From the NCBI GenBank assembly GCA_026982655.1, contig JALSGO010000011.1:1-33139 (forward strand): a stretch of DNA of 33,139 bases, read 5' to 3'. The notes under the pieces are model-generated. The model was not told where the DNA came from. It saw only the letters and a program-made list of their open reading frames with translations, and searched no databases. The position numbers were made by a program, and so were the translations under genes. This document shows, in pieces, positions 2,406 to 33,139 of the stretch. Source of the stretch: Candidatus Bipolaricaulota bacterium (GTDB taxonomy: Bacteria; Bipolaricaulota; Bipolaricaulia; RBG-16-55-9). Within the stretch, counting starts at the first letter, position 1, and each line of letters starts with the position of its first letter.

Positions 2406-3092
2406 TTAGATGATCAAGCTCTCGTCCAGGGAGAAGGGGAAGGGTTCGGCCATCTTCTGGAGGCTGTCGGGATCCAAGACGGTGATCGCCCGGTCGTTGA
2501 CAGAGATGACCCCGCGATCCTCGAGCTCCCCGAGGGTGCGAATGGCCGTCTTGGAGGAGACGCCGGCCATCTCCGCCAGCTCGGTGCGCGAGAGCTCGAT
2601 GCCGCTCTCCCCCAGCTTGAGGATGATGCGGGCCAGGCGCTCCTTGCTCCCGTTGTAGCTGCGCTCGGCCAGCTTGCACTGGAACGCCTTCAGCTCCTCG
2701 GAGAGCTTCTCGAACATGCGGAAGACCACCGAGGGGTGGCGCTCCAAGAAGCCGAAGAAGTCCCCCCGCTCGAGGAAGCCCACCTCCGCCGGGGTGAGCG
2801 TCTTGGCGTAGGCGATGTGGACCCCCTTGTCGAAGAGGGTCGTCTCCCCCAGGGTCTCGCCGGGTCCGACGATCTTTAAGATCTGCTTTTTCCCGCCCAG
2901 GGTGCGCTTGACCACCTTGACTCGTCCGGAGAAGACGAGGTAGAACCCGAAGGCCGGGGCCCCCTCTTGGTAGATGATCTCCCCCTGGCCATACTTGATC
3001 CGCCGGACCATGTTCTCCAAGACGGCGAGGTCCTTCGGACCCAAGTCGGCGAAGATCTTGAAGTCCCGGAGCTGCGTCATCCCTCTCACCAC
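2406..3092 (-). CDS. Crp/Fnr family transcriptional regulator (cNMP-binding domain + HTH)
   Basis: FKIFADLGPKDLAVLENMVRRIKYGQGEIIYQEGAPAFGFYLVFSGRVKVVK...GPGETLGETTLFDKG; C-terminal winged HTH 'SRTELAEMAGVSSKTAIRTLGELEDRGVIS'. Confidence 0.92.
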   Translation of the reverse strand: MVRGMTQLRDFKIFADLGPKDLAVLENMVRRIKYGQGEIIYQEGAPAFGFYLVFSGRVKVVKRTLGGKKQILKIVGPGETLGETTLFDKGVHIAYAKTLTPAEVGFLERGDFFGFLERHPSVVFRMFEKLSEELKAFQCKLAERSYNGSKERLARIILKLGESGIELSRTELAEMAGVSSKTAIRTLGELEDRGVISVNDRAITVLDPDSLQKMAEPFPFSLDESLII

Positions 3093-3216
3093 CCGCCTGC
3101 GATATGGAATTGAACTGGCTTCGCCCCTTCTGGCTGCCTCCGTCTCCCTCCCGTTGACCTGTCCCCGGTCGGTCGGCAGGCCCTCGAAGCTCGGGCTCGG
3201 GCTCCGAGGTTACCGT

Positions 3217-3245
3217 ATTATGATCGAACATCCCGACGATGTCAA
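3217..3245 (-). promoter_or_regulatory. Sigma70-type promoter upstream of Crp/Fnr gene
   Basis: Minus strand TTGACA (3245-3240), 17-bp spacer, CATAAT (3222-3217). Confidence 0.6.
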
Positions 3246-3308
3246 TAGGCGTTCGGCCCCTCAAGACGGGGCGGATAGGGGCGGCGGATCGGGTCTTCGC
3301 TCATCCTC

Positions 3309-4391
3309 TCATCTTGCTTCCCCCCGCGCCGTGCACTCGACCGACACGGTCTTCGCGGTGTTCTTCCCCAGCTCGTCAACTACGAGGACCTCCCAGACGA
3401 CCCGACCCTCTTGGGAGCAACGTGCCGTCAGTCGGAACGTCCCGGAGATGCGCCCTTTGACGTCGGGTGTGAAGACGCGGGCTACCGGCTTCAGCACCCC
3501 GGGGGAGGGCTGCATCTCGACTCGGGACAGGATGGCAAACGCTACATCCCGATCGGGATCTCGGAAGACCACGCTCACAGCGAACTCGGATCCGACGGGA
3601 ACCCGCCCGGGGAAGGTGAGGTCTAGGATCTGAGGACGCATGCTCCAATTCAGATCTCGCGCGAACAGGCGTGCCCGTCGGCATTGCTCGGGCGTAAGGG
3701 CACGTCCCCGCCCTCCGGAGACCATCAGGTTGCCGGAGAGATCCGAGTGGAAGAGCCCGAGGTTGTGGCCGAACTCGTGGGCAATCGTCCGGGTGGGGAT
3801 GCGGCCCAAGCTGCGCCACGCCACCAAGCTGATCCGGGCGTCCCTCCGGGCGGAGGGCAGCGCGCCCAGTCCCAGCACGTCGACCAGGGCGTCCACCACG
3901 AACAGGTTGATAGCACGGTACACGCGCTCTCCGGAGGGGAGGGCTCGGTTGGCCAATAGAGGGAGAGCCCGATAGTAGCTTGCGAACTCCTTGCGCTCTT
4001 GCAGGAGGGTCCTCCCGCTCGGGAGGGCAAGCCGTTGCGCCGCGACCACAGCCAGGACGTTCTGCTCAAAGCGCAGGGAGCAGACGGCCCACGTGCGGTT
4101 GACCCGCTCCAGGGCAAGCGCGACCAGTTGCCGAGCCAGGCCGCTGGGCGTTCCCAGCCAAGCGCCGGGCGCGGCAAAGGAGGGATCCCTTGCCAGAGGT
4201 GAGGGCGTCCCCCCAACGATGAAGACGTTTACCGGAACCGTGATCCAATCCTCACTGGCCTCGCGATCCCGATCGAGATCGGACACGGGTTGGGCCGACG
4301 CAAGGAGCGCCGCCCCCCCGACGACCAAGAGCCCAAGAAGAGCGCTGAGGCCCATCCTGCGGAAGCCCTCTTCGCCTTCGCCCCGGATCAC
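3309..4391 (-). CDS. Secreted metzincin-like zinc metallopeptidase
   Basis: N-terminal signal-like hydrophobic segment (LSALLGLLVVGGAALLASAQP); HExxHxxGxxH zinc motif 'HEFGHNLGLFH', followed by putative Met-turn 'GNLMVSGG'. Confidence 0.8.
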   Translation of the reverse strand: MIRGEGEEGFRRMGLSALLGLLVVGGAALLASAQPVSDLDRDREASEDWITVPVNVFIVGGTPSPLARDPSFAAPGAWLGTPSGLARQLVALALERVNRTWAVCSLRFEQNVLAVVAAQRLALPSGRTLLQERKEFASYYRALPLLANRALPSGERVYRAINLFVVDALVDVLGLGALPSARRDARISLVAWRSLGRIPTRTIAHEFGHNLGLFHSDLSGNLMVSGGRGRALTPEQCRRARLFARDLNWSMRPQILDLTFPGRVPVGSEFAVSVVFRDPDRDVAFAILSRVEMQPSPGVLKPVARVFTPDVKGRISGTFRLTARCSQEGRVVWEVLVVDELGKNTAKTVSVECTARGEAR

Positions 4392-29452: not shown

Positions 29453-29518
29453 TGGGCGGTGAGGGACTTGAACCCCCGACCTTCTGCACGTCAAGCAGAC
29501 GCTCTGCCAACTGAGCTG
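29453..29518 (-). tRNA. tRNA-Val(GAC)-like gene lacking a complementary 5' acceptor strand (probable att fragment or pseudo-tRNA)
   Basis: CAGCTCAGTTGGCAGAGCGTCTGCTTGACGTGCAGAAGGTCGGGGGTTCAAGTCCCTCACCGCCCA: D-, anticodon- and T-arms fold. The preceding 7 nt AAAATCC form no pairs with ACCGCCC. Confidence 0.75.
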
Positions 29519-29733
29519 GGATTTTTCGCTGAGGAACCGGATTTTAGGCCGTCCCGTCTCCTTGGAGCCTTCCCCAAGTGCGTCTGCTCAAGCTCCCTCC
29601 CTCCCGCGTCACCTCCTTCCAGAAAGCACCCTAGCATAACCCCTATCCCCGGTGTCAAGTCCTCCCCGCACCTGGGACGGTGACGGAAGCACTTCCTCTA
29701 CCTTGGGCCTCTTCCCGAGGTAAAATCCTGGGC

Positions 29734-30018
29734 ATGACGCAGAGGGATGAGCTACTCCGGGAAGAGCAACGGGTTAAGCGCCACGTCTCTTATGCCCTGC
29801 AGTCCTACGTGCAGTGGGGCTGGCGTGGGGATTACCAAGAGCTGCGACGGGAACTCACCCAGGAGGCGTGGCTGGGGTTGCTGCTGGGACGGCGAAGAGG
29901 ACAAGACAGCAAGCACGTAGACAACGCCATCCGACGCGCGCTCAATAGGTGGTGGCGCAGGGAACGAGAGTGGCTGGAGCACGTGGAAGTGCGCTCCATC
30001 GATGCGCCGGGCCTTTAG
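29734..30018 (+). CDS. Small protein resembling sigma-factor region 2
   Basis: MTQRDELLREEQRVKRHVSYALQSYVQWGWRGDYQELRRELTQEAWLGLLLGRRRGQDSKHVDNAIRRALNRWWRREREWLEHVEVRSIDAPGL; 'ELTQEAWLGLL...AIRRALNRWWRRER' pattern. Confidence 0.5.
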   Translation: MTQRDELLREEQRVKRHVSYALQSYVQWGWRGDYQELRRELTQEAWLGLLLGRRRGQDSKHVDNAIRRALNRWWRREREWLEHVEVRSIDAPGL

Positions 30019-30092: not shown

Positions 30093-30590
30093 TTATCGGA
30101 AACGGCCAAATGGCCGATTTCGATAAACTCCTAGGCCAACCCCGGCCTCAACGCTGCCGAATGGGGACGCAGACTGGGCGTCCCCGAACGCACCGTCCAG
30201 CGCTGGGTCTCCCACATCACCGAACGCTGGAGGAGAACACGCGAAGTCCAAGCTTGGCACCTCTACAAGCTGGGTTGGACTCAAAAAGAAATTGGGGAGA
30301 AGTTGGGAGTTGATCAGAGCGTCGTTAGTCGCCTTATGCAAAACCGTCAAATGACGGATTTGCATAAACTCCTCGGCTCGGACTGGAACGAGAAGGGTGT
30401 TCAGCAGGAGGCCGAGCGTTTGGGGATCCTTTGGGTTAGTCGCCTTGTCCAAAAACGGCCATTTGGCCGAATTTGGACAGCTCCTGGGTTCCGACTGGAA
30501 TGAGAAGGGTGTTCAGCAGGAGGCCGAACGCTTGGGGATCCTTTGGGTTAGTCGCCTTATGCAAAACGGCCATTTGGCCGATTTGCATAA
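30093..30590 (+). repeat. Array of four related 34-36 nt hairpins (30093-30126, 30334-30367, 30445-30480, 30557-30590); the last three spaced 111-112 nt apart
   Basis: Consensus TTATGCAAAA-CGGCC-(AAAT|ATTT)-GGCCG-ATTTGCATAA followed by A(A/G)CTCCTNGG; arms differ between copies but pairing is kept. Confidence 0.9.
30135..30503 (+). pseudogene. HTH-containing protein fragment with tandem HTH-like 37-aa module (frame-disrupted)
   Basis: Open frame after TAG at 30132: ANPGLNAAEWGRRLGVPERTVQRWVSHITERWRRTREVQAWHLYKLGWTQKEIGEKLGVDQSVVSRLMQNRQMTDLHKLLGSDWNEKGVQQEAERLGILWVSRLVQ...; continues in the shifted frame (ORF 30397-30651) as KNGHLAEFGQLLGSDWNEKGVQQEAERLGILWVSRLMQNGHLADLHKLLG. Confidence 0.6.
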
Positions 30591-30662: not shown

Positions 30663-31109
30663 TCAGCCACCGTAAGTACACCTACCGCACCTCATCCCTG
30701 TCATGACGCGCTCATCTGCCGGGCCTCCACACTCCGGGCACCGGAGGACCGGCACCGTCAGCTCAAGCCATCCCCGACGGTCGCAAGCTTGGCAGTCGCA
30801 GAGCTCCCCGTCCAGCAACGTCTTCTTCCAACCTTGGCCTCCGCACTCCCCGCAGGCCACTCTCACTGTCGTCCACTCCCATGTGTCCTTGACTTGGCGC
30901 TCATTGGCCCGTATTTTGGATTTGGCGACGGGAGCCGGGTGGAGGTCCCCGGCCAGGGACGCCCGGCTCTCTGTCGTGCTCTCAGCCCCATTCTGGGAGA
31001 GATCGCGCTCCATCAGCTCCGCCCCGATCGCCGTCCTCAACGCCTCCAGCTCTTGCTCCGTAAGCGTGTTGAGGCTTTCGATTAGACTTTGTGCTTTTGC
31101 ACTGAGCAT
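30663..31109 (-). CDS. Zinc-ribbon protein with eight Cys in CxxC-type pairs
   Basis: CGECGGQGWKKTLLDGELCDCQACDRRGWLELTVPVLRCPECGGPADERVMTGMRCGRCTYGG; SD-like GGGGGAGA before ATG at 31109 (track start 31145). Confidence 0.7.
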   Translation of the reverse strand: MLSAKAQSLIESLNTLTEQELEALRTAIGAELMERDLSQNGAESTTESRASLAGDLHPAPVAKSKIRANERQVKDTWEWTTVRVACGECGGQGWKKTLLDGELCDCQACDRRGWLELTVPVLRCPECGGPADERVMTGMRCGRCTYGG

Positions 31110-31362
31110 TTCCGGCTCTCCCCCTTTCGGATTTGACGATTTCAACCGCCAGCATGTGCTTGCACCACTTGATTTCCTTGCCCCTTCTTCGGTAGTCAGG
31201 ACAAGTGCACGTCCCGTTGACCATGTAGAAAGCTCCGTGAGAGCCCTCTACAATCCAATAGTCGTCCGCGCCTTCGATCCGGTGAACTTTACCCGCCCTC
31301 ACGATCTCCTTGGCCTTCTCCAGCCGCCGGTGGGCCGCCTCAATCCGCTGCACAACCGTCAT
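30982..31362 (-). CDS. SWIM zinc-finger protein, overlapping the zinc-ribbon gene
   Basis: MTVVQRIEAAHRRLEKAKEIVRAGKVHRIEGADDYWIVEGSHGAFYMVNGTCTCPDYRRRGKEIKWCKHMLAVEIVKS (CxCx(n)CxH); ATG at 31362 (track ORF extends to a TTG at 31434). Confidence 0.75.
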   Translation of the reverse strand: MTVVQRIEAAHRRLEKAKEIVRAGKVHRIEGADDYWIVEGSHGAFYMVNGTCTCPDYRRRGKEIKWCKHMLAVEIVKSERGRAGNAQCKSTKSNRKPQHAYGARAGGVEDGDRGGADGARSLPEWG

Positions 31363-31457
31363 CACTGATCCCCCCTCTCCTCTCTCAGTAGCTTGCTTTC
31401 GCTTCGCTTGCTTTCGCCGGTGTTCACTTGTCAAAGATCCTTTGATCTTGCACTGTA

Positions 31458-31486
31458 ATCATACCACATGGTGGCATGATTGTCAA
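31458..31486 (-). promoter_or_regulatory. Sigma70-type promoter driving the SWIM/zinc-ribbon genes, overlapping a 25-bp inverted repeat
   Basis: Minus strand TTGACA-N17-TATGAT; region AATCATaCCAC-ATG-GTGGcATGATT is nearly perfectly dyad-symmetric. Confidence 0.75.
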
Positions 31487-31558
31487 GGGGGTAACGCCGG
31501 GTAAATGAAGGGACATTCGTCACCAGAAAAAGTGGCTTACCGACACTGCAAGTCTAAC

Positions 31559-31587
31559 TTGCAATTGGTAAACGCAAGTGGTATGAT
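31559..31587 (+). promoter_or_regulatory. Sigma70-type promoter for the 31594 operon
   Basis: TTGCAA-N17-TATGAT, followed by gacacc and then the ATG. Confidence 0.7.
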
Positions 31588-31593
31588 GACACC

Positions 31594-31908
31594 ATGTTTC
31601 TCGCGAAACAGAGGAAGAAGAAACCGGAGGGCGGATACTGGACAGCTTGGGTGCTGCGGGACAGCTATTGGGATCGGGAAGAGAAACGGATCAAGCAACG
31701 GTATATCGCTTACGTTGGGAAAAAGCAGACGATCACGGAGTCCCAAGCCCGGGAACTGGCGTGCAAGGTGGCAGTGAAACTGGGGATCACGGAGGAAGAG
31801 GCGTGGCAGAAGCTGCGGAGGGTGAAGCGCCTGCGGATCGTGCCGGATGAGGAGCCGGAAGGCGGGGTGCTCACCCTGGCTCAGCATCGCAAGCGCGTCG
31901 CCCCATGA
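31594..31908 (+). CDS. Small accessory protein of unknown function
   Basis: MFLAKQRKKKPEGGYWTAWVLRDSYWDREEKRIKQRYIAYVGKKQTITESQARELACKVAVKLGITEEEAWQKLRRVKRLRIVPDEE... Confidence 0.7.
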   Translation: MFLAKQRKKKPEGGYWTAWVLRDSYWDREEKRIKQRYIAYVGKKQTITESQARELACKVAVKLGITEEEAWQKLRRVKRLRIVPDEEPEGGVLTLAQHRKRVAP

Positions 31909-32228
31909 CGGCCCACCGCAAAACCGTAGACGTAGAGCTGGAGCGAGCCGAGGACGTGCGGGAGCGCCGTACCTTCGAGCTTGAGCGGGGCAAGGTCCGG
32001 GCCTTCCGGCTGCAACTGGAGGTCCGCGTACAGGGCGAATGGAAGCCCGTCATCCGCTACGACACCGCCCACGGGTTCGTCGATTGTGATCGCTACGACT
32101 TGACAGGGAAGAAGTATAAGACGATACTCAACGTGTCCTTGGAAGAGGGTTTGACGTTGGCTCAGAACGACCTAAATGCGAATTGGGCCGTTTACCGAGA
32201 ACGATTCCTCCAGGGGTTGAAGCCCTAA
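31905..32228 (+). CDS. Small protein of unknown function (DUF7718-like)
   Basis: RGKVRAFRLQLEVRVQGEWKPVIRYDTAHGFVDCDRYDLTGKKYKT; ATGA overlap with upstream gene. Confidence 0.65.
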   Translation: MTAHRKTVDVELERAEDVRERRTFELERGKVRAFRLQLEVRVQGEWKPVIRYDTAHGFVDCDRYDLTGKKYKTILNVSLEEGLTLAQNDLNANWAVYRERFLQGLKP

Positions 32229-32275
32229 CTTGAGCCATGGGCCGGGGAAAGAGACAAAGGGAAAGGGAAGGAAAG

Positions 32276-32551
32276 ATGACTACATACGAGCGCAAGAACA
32301 CCCAGCTTATCGCCCTATTTGACGAGTTGACCCGCCGCCGACCGGATCTGCTGGGCGAGATCCCCAGCAGTGTTGCGTTGGTCATGCAGATCGATGGGGA
32401 TGAAGAGTTCAACCGCTGGGCCCGGGAAGTCGCCGAGCACAACAGCCCCGACCGTCCGAAGTTGTTGGTGGTCTTCCGCTTCGCGCAGCTTCCCCCGAAG
32501 AAGGCCCCTGCGTGGGAAGACGTACAAGCGTGGGAGTTGCAACCCGCCTAA
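32276..32551 (+). CDS. Small protein of unknown function (DUF5647-like)
   Basis: MTTYERKNTQLIALFDELTRRRPDLLGEIPSSVALVMQIDGDEEFNRWAREVAEHNSPDRPKLLVVFRFAQLPPK; SD GGAAGGAAAG upstream of ATG at 32276. Confidence 0.65.
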   Translation: MTTYERKNTQLIALFDELTRRRPDLLGEIPSSVALVMQIDGDEEFNRWAREVAEHNSPDRPKLLVVFRFAQLPPKKAPAWEDVQAWELQPA

Positions 32552-32907
32552 GCTTCTCCCCAAAGGCGCTTAGCGAGCGTATTGAGCACCCGCCGCAGCC
32601 TGCGCTCCCAAGCGTCCGAAAACCGGAAGTTGCCCGTCTCCAGCTTGCTGATGTCATCCCGCCTAACTCCCGACAAGCGTGCCAGATCCGCTTGGCGCAT
32701 CCCCAGCTCCTTGCGGGCCTGCTGAAGCAGAGAGCCATAGGCTTTGGCCACCCAGCGGGGGTCGTCGCTAAAGGTTTTCGCAGTAACTTCCAAAGCCTCC
32801 GCTAGCCGCTGATGCCAACGCTCGTCATCCTCCAAGAGCTGGGCCTCCCGATAGAGAAACCTTCGACGTTCTTCCTCATTTGCAAACTTAACTAACGCGA
32901 TGTGCAA
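32548..32907 (-). CDS. XRE-family HTH regulator
   Basis: YGSLLQQARKELGMRQADLARLSGVRRDDISKLETGNFRFSDAWERRLRRVLNTLAKRLW; start uncertain (TTG at 32907). Confidence 0.8.
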   Translation of the reverse strand: MHIALVKFANEEERRRFLYREAQLLEDDERWHQRLAEALEVTAKTFSDDPRWVAKAYGSLLQQARKELGMRQADLARLSGVRRDDISKLETGNFRFSDAWERRLRRVLNTLAKRLWGEA

Positions 32908-32911
32908 GTTT

Positions 32912-33139
32912 CTAATGAGCCAACAAGGTGTCGAACTGCAGCGGCTCTCTTCCCCTTTGCAGGTTGAGGTAGACCGCCAAGGTGTGGCTCAAGACCTTGC
33001 GGTAGACCCTCACCCCCAAGTGCCACCGGTCCCGAGCCCACGTCCGTTTCGCCCGAAACCGCTCGACCCGCTGCCCAATCACCGTCTCAATGCGTCGGCG
33101 CTTTTGGGTGAGCCACCGGCTCCACCTCCCCGGGTCCTG
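32912..33139 (-). mobile_element. C-terminal part of IS982-like transposase (continues beyond window)
   Basis: Reverse-strand translation QDPGRWSRWLTQKRRRIETVIGQRVERFRAKRTWARDRWHLGVRVYRKVLSHTLAVYLNLQRGREPLQFDTLLAH*; RRIETV..Q..ERF..KR.WARD.WHL pattern. Not in the ORF track (no in-window Met). Confidence 0.7.

Follow-up and report, generated by a model that had tools for sequence, protein, structure and literature searches.

Background

The window analysed here, a stretch of 33,139 nt from a Candidatus Bipolaricaulota bacterium, contains between positions 30093 and 30590 four palindromes (A–D) that differ in sequence from copy to copy and are self-complementary in each. This locus raises the question of what keeps the two arms in step: folding of a single strand, a process of DNA replication or movement, or a protein recognizing the double strand. 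The preliminary description had interpreted the palindromes as hairpins on an integrated element. The features relevant to this question are the following.

29461..29517, minus strand: 3' fragment of tRNA-Val(GAC), Rfam tRNA 43.8 bits (model 9-63 of 71), attachment-site remnant
29733..30018, plus strand: element ORF upstream of the palindromes (MTQRDELLREEQRVKRHV...), without family match
30093..30126, no strand: palindrome A, TTATCGGAAACGGCCA-AA-TGGCCGATTTCGATAA, outside a recognizable HTH reading frame
30138..30503, plus strand: ORF with two HTH motifs (HTH_23 and HTH_3, above Pfam cut-off), ...GVPERTVQRWV... and ...GWTQKEIGEKLGVDQSVVSRLMQN plus palindrome B
30324..30585, plus strand: 112-nt tandem repeat, 2.4 copies, 84 % matches, comprising palindrome and HTH coding remnant
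30334..30367, no strand: palindrome B, core CAAA-A-CCGTCA-AA-TGACGG-A-TTTG, directly after the second HTH recognition helix
30355..30651, plus strand: second ORF of 98 aa, in a different frame from the HTH ORF and spanning C and D, no Pfam match
30445..30480, no strand: palindrome C, 36 nt, one additional base per arm
30557..30590, no strand: palindrome D, central 24 nt (CAAAACGGCCATTTGGCCGATTTG) identical, in the same frame, to a phage DUF3102-family gene (L002)

Form and covariation of the palindromes

A palindrome scan of the whole window ranked A–D, found at the positions originally given, as the four best sites (scores 13.5, 13.5, 11 and 11), with one further site equalling the minimum of 11; the maxima of 20 dinucleotide-shuffled windows were 8-11. 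The common form, a coding palindrome CAAA-N-(5-8 variable bp)-centre-(complement)-N-TTTG, is matched exactly by B and D, with one A more per arm by C, and as GAAA/TTTC by A, which contains a single G-T pair. While the overall architecture proposed earlier was retained, its 5-bp inner stem and 4-nt loop had to be redrawn as an inner arm of 6 bp with a non-complementary 2-nt centre (CGGCCA-TT-TGGCCG). Likewise, copy C, formerly described as carrying an AA.AA mismatch, possesses one more base in each arm, whereby symmetry is preserved and the reading frame shifted.

Copies B, C and D are not independent, since they are members of one 112-nt tandem repeat; their arms were altered jointly after duplication. 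Alignment of A, B and D with two phage sites yielded 93 % paired cells and changes on both sides in 5 of 15 pairs, and the covariation score of these five sequences only was 0.373 compared to 0.141 upon shuffling (1/500), falling to at most 0.08 once the partner was slid. The compensatory nature of the arm changes, previously read by eye, is thereby corroborated. When the peptides surrounding B and D were recoded, none of 2000 synonymous recodings of either was as palindromic as the observed sequence, so that the arms covary beyond coding constraint, in agreement with the suggested selection on, or active maintenance of, these sites.

The integrated element and its HTH frames

The four palindromes reside in decayed repeats of HTH coding sequence and belong to an element inserted at tRNA-Val, confirming the assumed location on an integrated element. 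The tRNA-Val fragment marks the end of this element, and the palindromes lie 0.6-1.1 kb inward of it. A stretch of 68 nt (tRNA fragment plus flank) is identical to an intact tRNA-Val on contig C28 of the same assembly, which adjoins a tyrosine recombinase gene (assigned by sequence, not by family search). A single integrative element probably has one of its ends at the fragment in the window and the other at the tRNA-Val/recombinase pair of the other contig. In sequence L343 of the same assembly, the intact tRNA-Val is located at 1502-1576 and the tyrosine recombinase at 478-1440. Further genes of the element (30982-33139) code for a SWIM zinc-finger-like protein (just under the Pfam cut-off), DUF7718, DUF5647 and an XRE-type HTH protein, and the contig end (32940-33139) presumably harbours a possible transposase remnant.

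The final codons of the second recognition helix (VDQSVVSRLMQN) already contain the start of palindrome B, which follows this helix directly and in frame and encodes MQNRQMTDLHK after VDQSVVSRL; A has no adjoining HTH. Copies C and D are preceded by shortened HTH-like remnants lacking a Pfam match, and the repeat unit is there in a frame different from that of the HTH ORF, which is broken at C. The HTH frame matches HTH families (e.g., HTH_23 and HTH_3) and does not belong to DUF3102/phrog_1748.

Neither the remaining host genome nor 60 relatives contained further palindrome copies, and homologues of the HTH gene were absent from 100 genomes of the phylum as well as from the searched collections; the phylum-wide protein search returned one sigma factor only, which is not a close relative. 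Nucleotide searches with copy D gave weak unrelated matches in phages and none in plasmids. A genome-wide scan for the window-type pattern detected 59 loci, 19 of which have complementary inner arms and resemble terminators or chance matches, with no HTH gene carrying this palindrome among them; the pattern CAAAACGG-N8-CCGTTTTG yielded only chance matches in viral contigs.

Intragenic palindromes in DUF3102 genes of transposable phages

The 24-nt core of copy D recurs exactly and in the same frame in viral contig L002, within a gene unrelated to that of the window, and a compensated variant is present in a second viral contig (L024). Both genes belong to the DUF3102/phrog_1748 family, a class of unknown function in Mu/B3-like transposable phages; in B3-like phages, the DUF3102 gene adjoins transposase A. 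For about 112 of 122 DUF3102 genes, the top-scoring palindrome lies at one and the same alignment position, right after the recognition helix (...ERTARRFM...), and about ten genes lack it. The site has the form CAAA-N-(6-8 variable bp)-N-TTTG and occurs essentially as one strong site per genome, at homologous position and with variable sequence; in B3 and Fc22, it is the best palindrome of the respective phage genome.

Under a synonymous-codon null, the mean palindrome score of the DUF3102 genes was 10.1 versus 4.7 (top null-set mean, 5.0), with 57 of 89 genes at p<=0.01, and a score of 11 was reached by 39 % of the genes versus 4 % of control ORFs. For 22 distinct phage sites, the covariation score was 0.681 versus 0.142 for shuffled sequences (0/500). 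Watson-Crick pairing amounts to 78-100 % at pairs 2-7 of the even class of sites (27-70 % in shuffles), with as many as four pair types in use, and the central pairs 1 and 2 are complementary in 82 % and 97 % (63 % and 35 % shuffled). G-T wobble was found in 5 of 40 sites at even-class pair 3, mostly in one clade, and is nearly absent from the other inner pairs. The position of the A-A mismatch in the window palindromes corresponds to the inner pair that is least strictly kept in the phages.

The AlphaFold model of DUF3102 is all-helical and confident (pLDDT 89). A putative HTH is formed by helices 95-102 and 107-123, and the palindrome encodes helix 126-132. This HTH assignment is based on the predicted helices and the helix-base correlation described below, since Foldseek comparison of the full model and of its DNA-binding part with solved structures gave no significant match; the Noc DNA-binding domain scored non-significantly (E 6.6), and Pfam yielded no ParB match. 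The literature searched holds only passing mentions of DUF3102 without a function, and a limited search for DUF3102 together with palindromes, intragenic operators or intragenic parS retrieved nothing on point. Distant DUF3102-like genes from gammaproteobacterial genomes (L223, L224 and L225) possess strong CAAATGTC- or AAATGTC-type palindromes after an HTH-like helix. A search for an HTH/methylase-like family with a palindromic segment after the helix found none, and this candidate was dropped.

Correlation of recognition helix and palindrome

Distances between recognition helices are correlated with those between palindromes when the remainder of the protein is controlled for (partial Mantel r=0.45 and 0.52, 0/2000). 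Mutual information links helix position 6 with core position 3 (z 14.7) and helix position 3 with core position 4 (z 13.0), these z-scores ignoring the relatedness of the phage sequences, which the Mantel and nearest-pair tests address in part. The CGG half-site accompanies R at helix position 6 in 16 of 20 cases and non-R residues in 0 of 44, the core register being ambiguous wherever CAAAA occurs. Among 42 disjoint nearest pairs, an identical residue went along with an identical core in 16 of 19, and a different residue with a different core in 21 of 23 (p 8e-7); in the nearest pair L059/L056, for example, a change from R to Q is accompanied by one from CGG to CCG. The correlations run from helix position 6 (bases 2-3) via position 3 (bases 3-4) to positions 1 and 4 (base 5), in the order that docking of an HTH would produce.

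Applied to the window, this phage code (R, CGG; Q, NCG) fits B only, where the first HTH has Q and the site CCG. The CGG of palindromes A, C and D, a half-site associated with R in the phages, does not fit.

Exchange of the helix cassette and displaced palindromes

The phages B3 and Fc22 are near-identical along the DUF3102 gene except for ~200 nt containing helix and palindrome. Phages Ps60 and PM105 share 96.5 % identity across 11 kb; in both, the DUF3102 gene is devoid of the palindrome, each repressor gene carries one with differing arms at the equivalent place, and the DUF3102 helix cassette differs as well. The segment of Ps60 (L329, 10942-11241) and the matching part of PM105 (L330) comprise the repressor HTH domain and the palindrome, swapped together with the DUF3102 helix cassette. 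As the HTH part of the repressor is itself exchanged, the repressor is a possible reader of the displaced palindrome in these two phages. In L297, the XRE repressor gene (2846-3370, minus strand) carries CAAATGTCGCGACGTCGCGACATTTG, identical to the palindrome of the L289 DUF3102 gene, the helix of which resembles that of the L297 DUF3102 protein.

Interpretation and alternative explanations

Palindromes of the A–D type are probably dsDNA recognition sites for dimers of HTH proteins, situated inside the coding sequence of mobile elements. From the features seen in the sequences, i.e. palindromy beyond coding constraint, covariation, the fixed place by the helix, helix-base correlation, cassette exchange and displaced palindromes in repressor genes, we infer binding and dimerization. 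The DUF3102 gene would encode an HTH protein and also contain the target of this protein, placed a few codons past the recognition helix; very likely, the protein reads this site within its own gene. The outer CAAA...TTTG is constant, and the inner 5-8 bp per arm would be read by the recognition helix. As site and reader are contained in ~180 bp, both may be exchanged jointly by recombination, and specificity could change without uncoupling. With respect to function, autoregulation appears as the foremost candidate, ahead of a partition-like role and, in third place, a role resembling that of an enhancer beside the transposase gene.

In form, reading frame, encoded peptide, lax pair and surroundings, the window sites agree with those of the phages; they differ from them in gene family, number (four), broken frame and code fit (B only). 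Taken together, these likenesses and differences render it likely that they are dsDNA sites of the phage design; that the neighbouring HTH protein reads them is only possible, the other candidate reader being an unseen protein of the element. Most likely, the same design was multiplied here into the 112-nt tandem array and became partly detached from the working frame, the array probably being a tandem, partly decayed relative of the phage arrangement.

Hairpins in mRNA, acting like intrinsic terminators or in translational control, could account for the self-complementary arms and for the A-run/stem/T-run form of some copies, and several genome matches to the window-type pattern resemble intergenic terminators. 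However, the complementary central pairs 1-2 of the even class (82 and 97 %) would be unpairable in a loop, G-T pairs are rare at the variable positions, helix residues predict bases, and Rfam has no match at the site, making an RNA hairpin very unlikely. The symmetric central pairs and scarce wobble of the phage set point to a dsDNA dyad and speak against the selection for a folded strand initially supposed; of the proposed ssDNA/RNA-protein recognition sites, recognition by a protein is favoured and the single-stranded or RNA target is not. Quasipalindrome correction by template switching during replication is a known mechanism that would generate symmetry devoid of function. The gain of one base per arm in C at the expense of the frame and the recent common origin of the tandem copies B–D would conform to it, and it may have contributed to the joint change of the arms. 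As the sole cause it is nonetheless unlikely: the position within the gene is fixed, helix residues go with particular bases, and displaced palindromes vary jointly with the helix cassette, none of which it explains.

The sharing of 24 nt, read in one frame, by two unrelated genes, and the occurrence of an identical palindrome in the L289 DUF3102 and the L297 repressor gene, would also be expected of a mobile palindromic insertion element similar to those of Rickettsia, as formerly considered. This notion is highly improbable given one locus in the host genome, no dispersed copies there or in 60 relatives, and phage sites confined to about one strong site per genome at homologous position with variable sequence. 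For the window only, the palindromes might have no connection to the HTH frames and serve, close to the attachment site, as accessory sites of the element's tyrosine recombinase or its excision factor, which would agree with the array lying 0.6-1.1 kb inside the tRNA-Val junction. Yet B–D each follow HTH coding remnants and encode nearly the peptide of the phage sites, and palindromic dimer sites are unusual as arm-type sites; accessory sites are therefore unlikely.

Preference is accordingly given to dsDNA sites read by HTH proteins. If this is true, DUF3102 is a family of sequence-specific DNA-binding proteins with a target readable from each gene, and its numerous natural pairs of protein and site would allow a recognition code to be drawn up ahead of experiments. 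It would furthermore account for rapid change of DNA-binding specificity in phages with the match retained, turn the puzzle of covarying hairpins into a testable prediction, and supply a search rule, a palindrome right after an HTH helix, for operators of uncharacterized mobile-element regulators. More tentatively, and with somewhat greater doubt than trust, a self-addressed cassette (helix and cognate palindrome within ~180 bp, swapped together) may be conceived as a general module of mobile elements that originated in several HTH families not related to one another (DUF3102, the window HTH gene and an LmbU-like phage gene), its sites having been multiplied into an array in the window.

Comparison with known systems

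Pairs of HTH proteins and operators are of a known kind. We know of no description of a self-contained arrangement beside the recognition helix that diversifies as a unit, and a limited literature search found no such unit of helix and palindrome. In ParB-parS (with parS also inside parB/spo0J) and repABC, an HTH protein reads a palindrome near or inside its own operon, which separates related replicons. DUF3102 resembles these systems in combining a putative HTH reader with a palindrome near its own gene, but has no ParB match, and most of its sites lie few codons after the helix and are exchanged with it.

The enhancer (internal activation sequence) and operators of phage Mu are likewise early-region sites near repressor and transposase genes, and a Mu-like placement is apparent from DUF3102 adjoining transposase A and from the displaced palindromes within the repressor gene, where their role is putative. 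Mu employs the N-terminal domain of the transposase itself and several operators, whereas the DUF3102 phages have a separate protein and one palindrome.

For regulators of the LmbU family, the binding site CGCCGGCG was reported (PMC6510168). An LmbU-like gene on a viral contig (L250, 2141-2833) contains CAAATGT-CGCCGGCG-ACATTTG after the helix, with the family motif in its centre. This is a single case, though: six members from Streptomyces/Pseudonocardia are without a palindrome at that place, and LmbU relatives from plasmids lack one at the equivalent place.

Rickettsia palindromic elements are dispersed repeats of conserved sequence; they share with the present sites the palindrome within coding sequence, which is here confined to one fixed site with variable arms. 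Inverted repeats in protein-coding genes are also known from the mitochondria of Nematomorpha, where coding palindromes form perfect inverted repeats of up to 284 bp (PMC6649704) and are thus, unlike those described here, far longer, perfect and mitochondrial.
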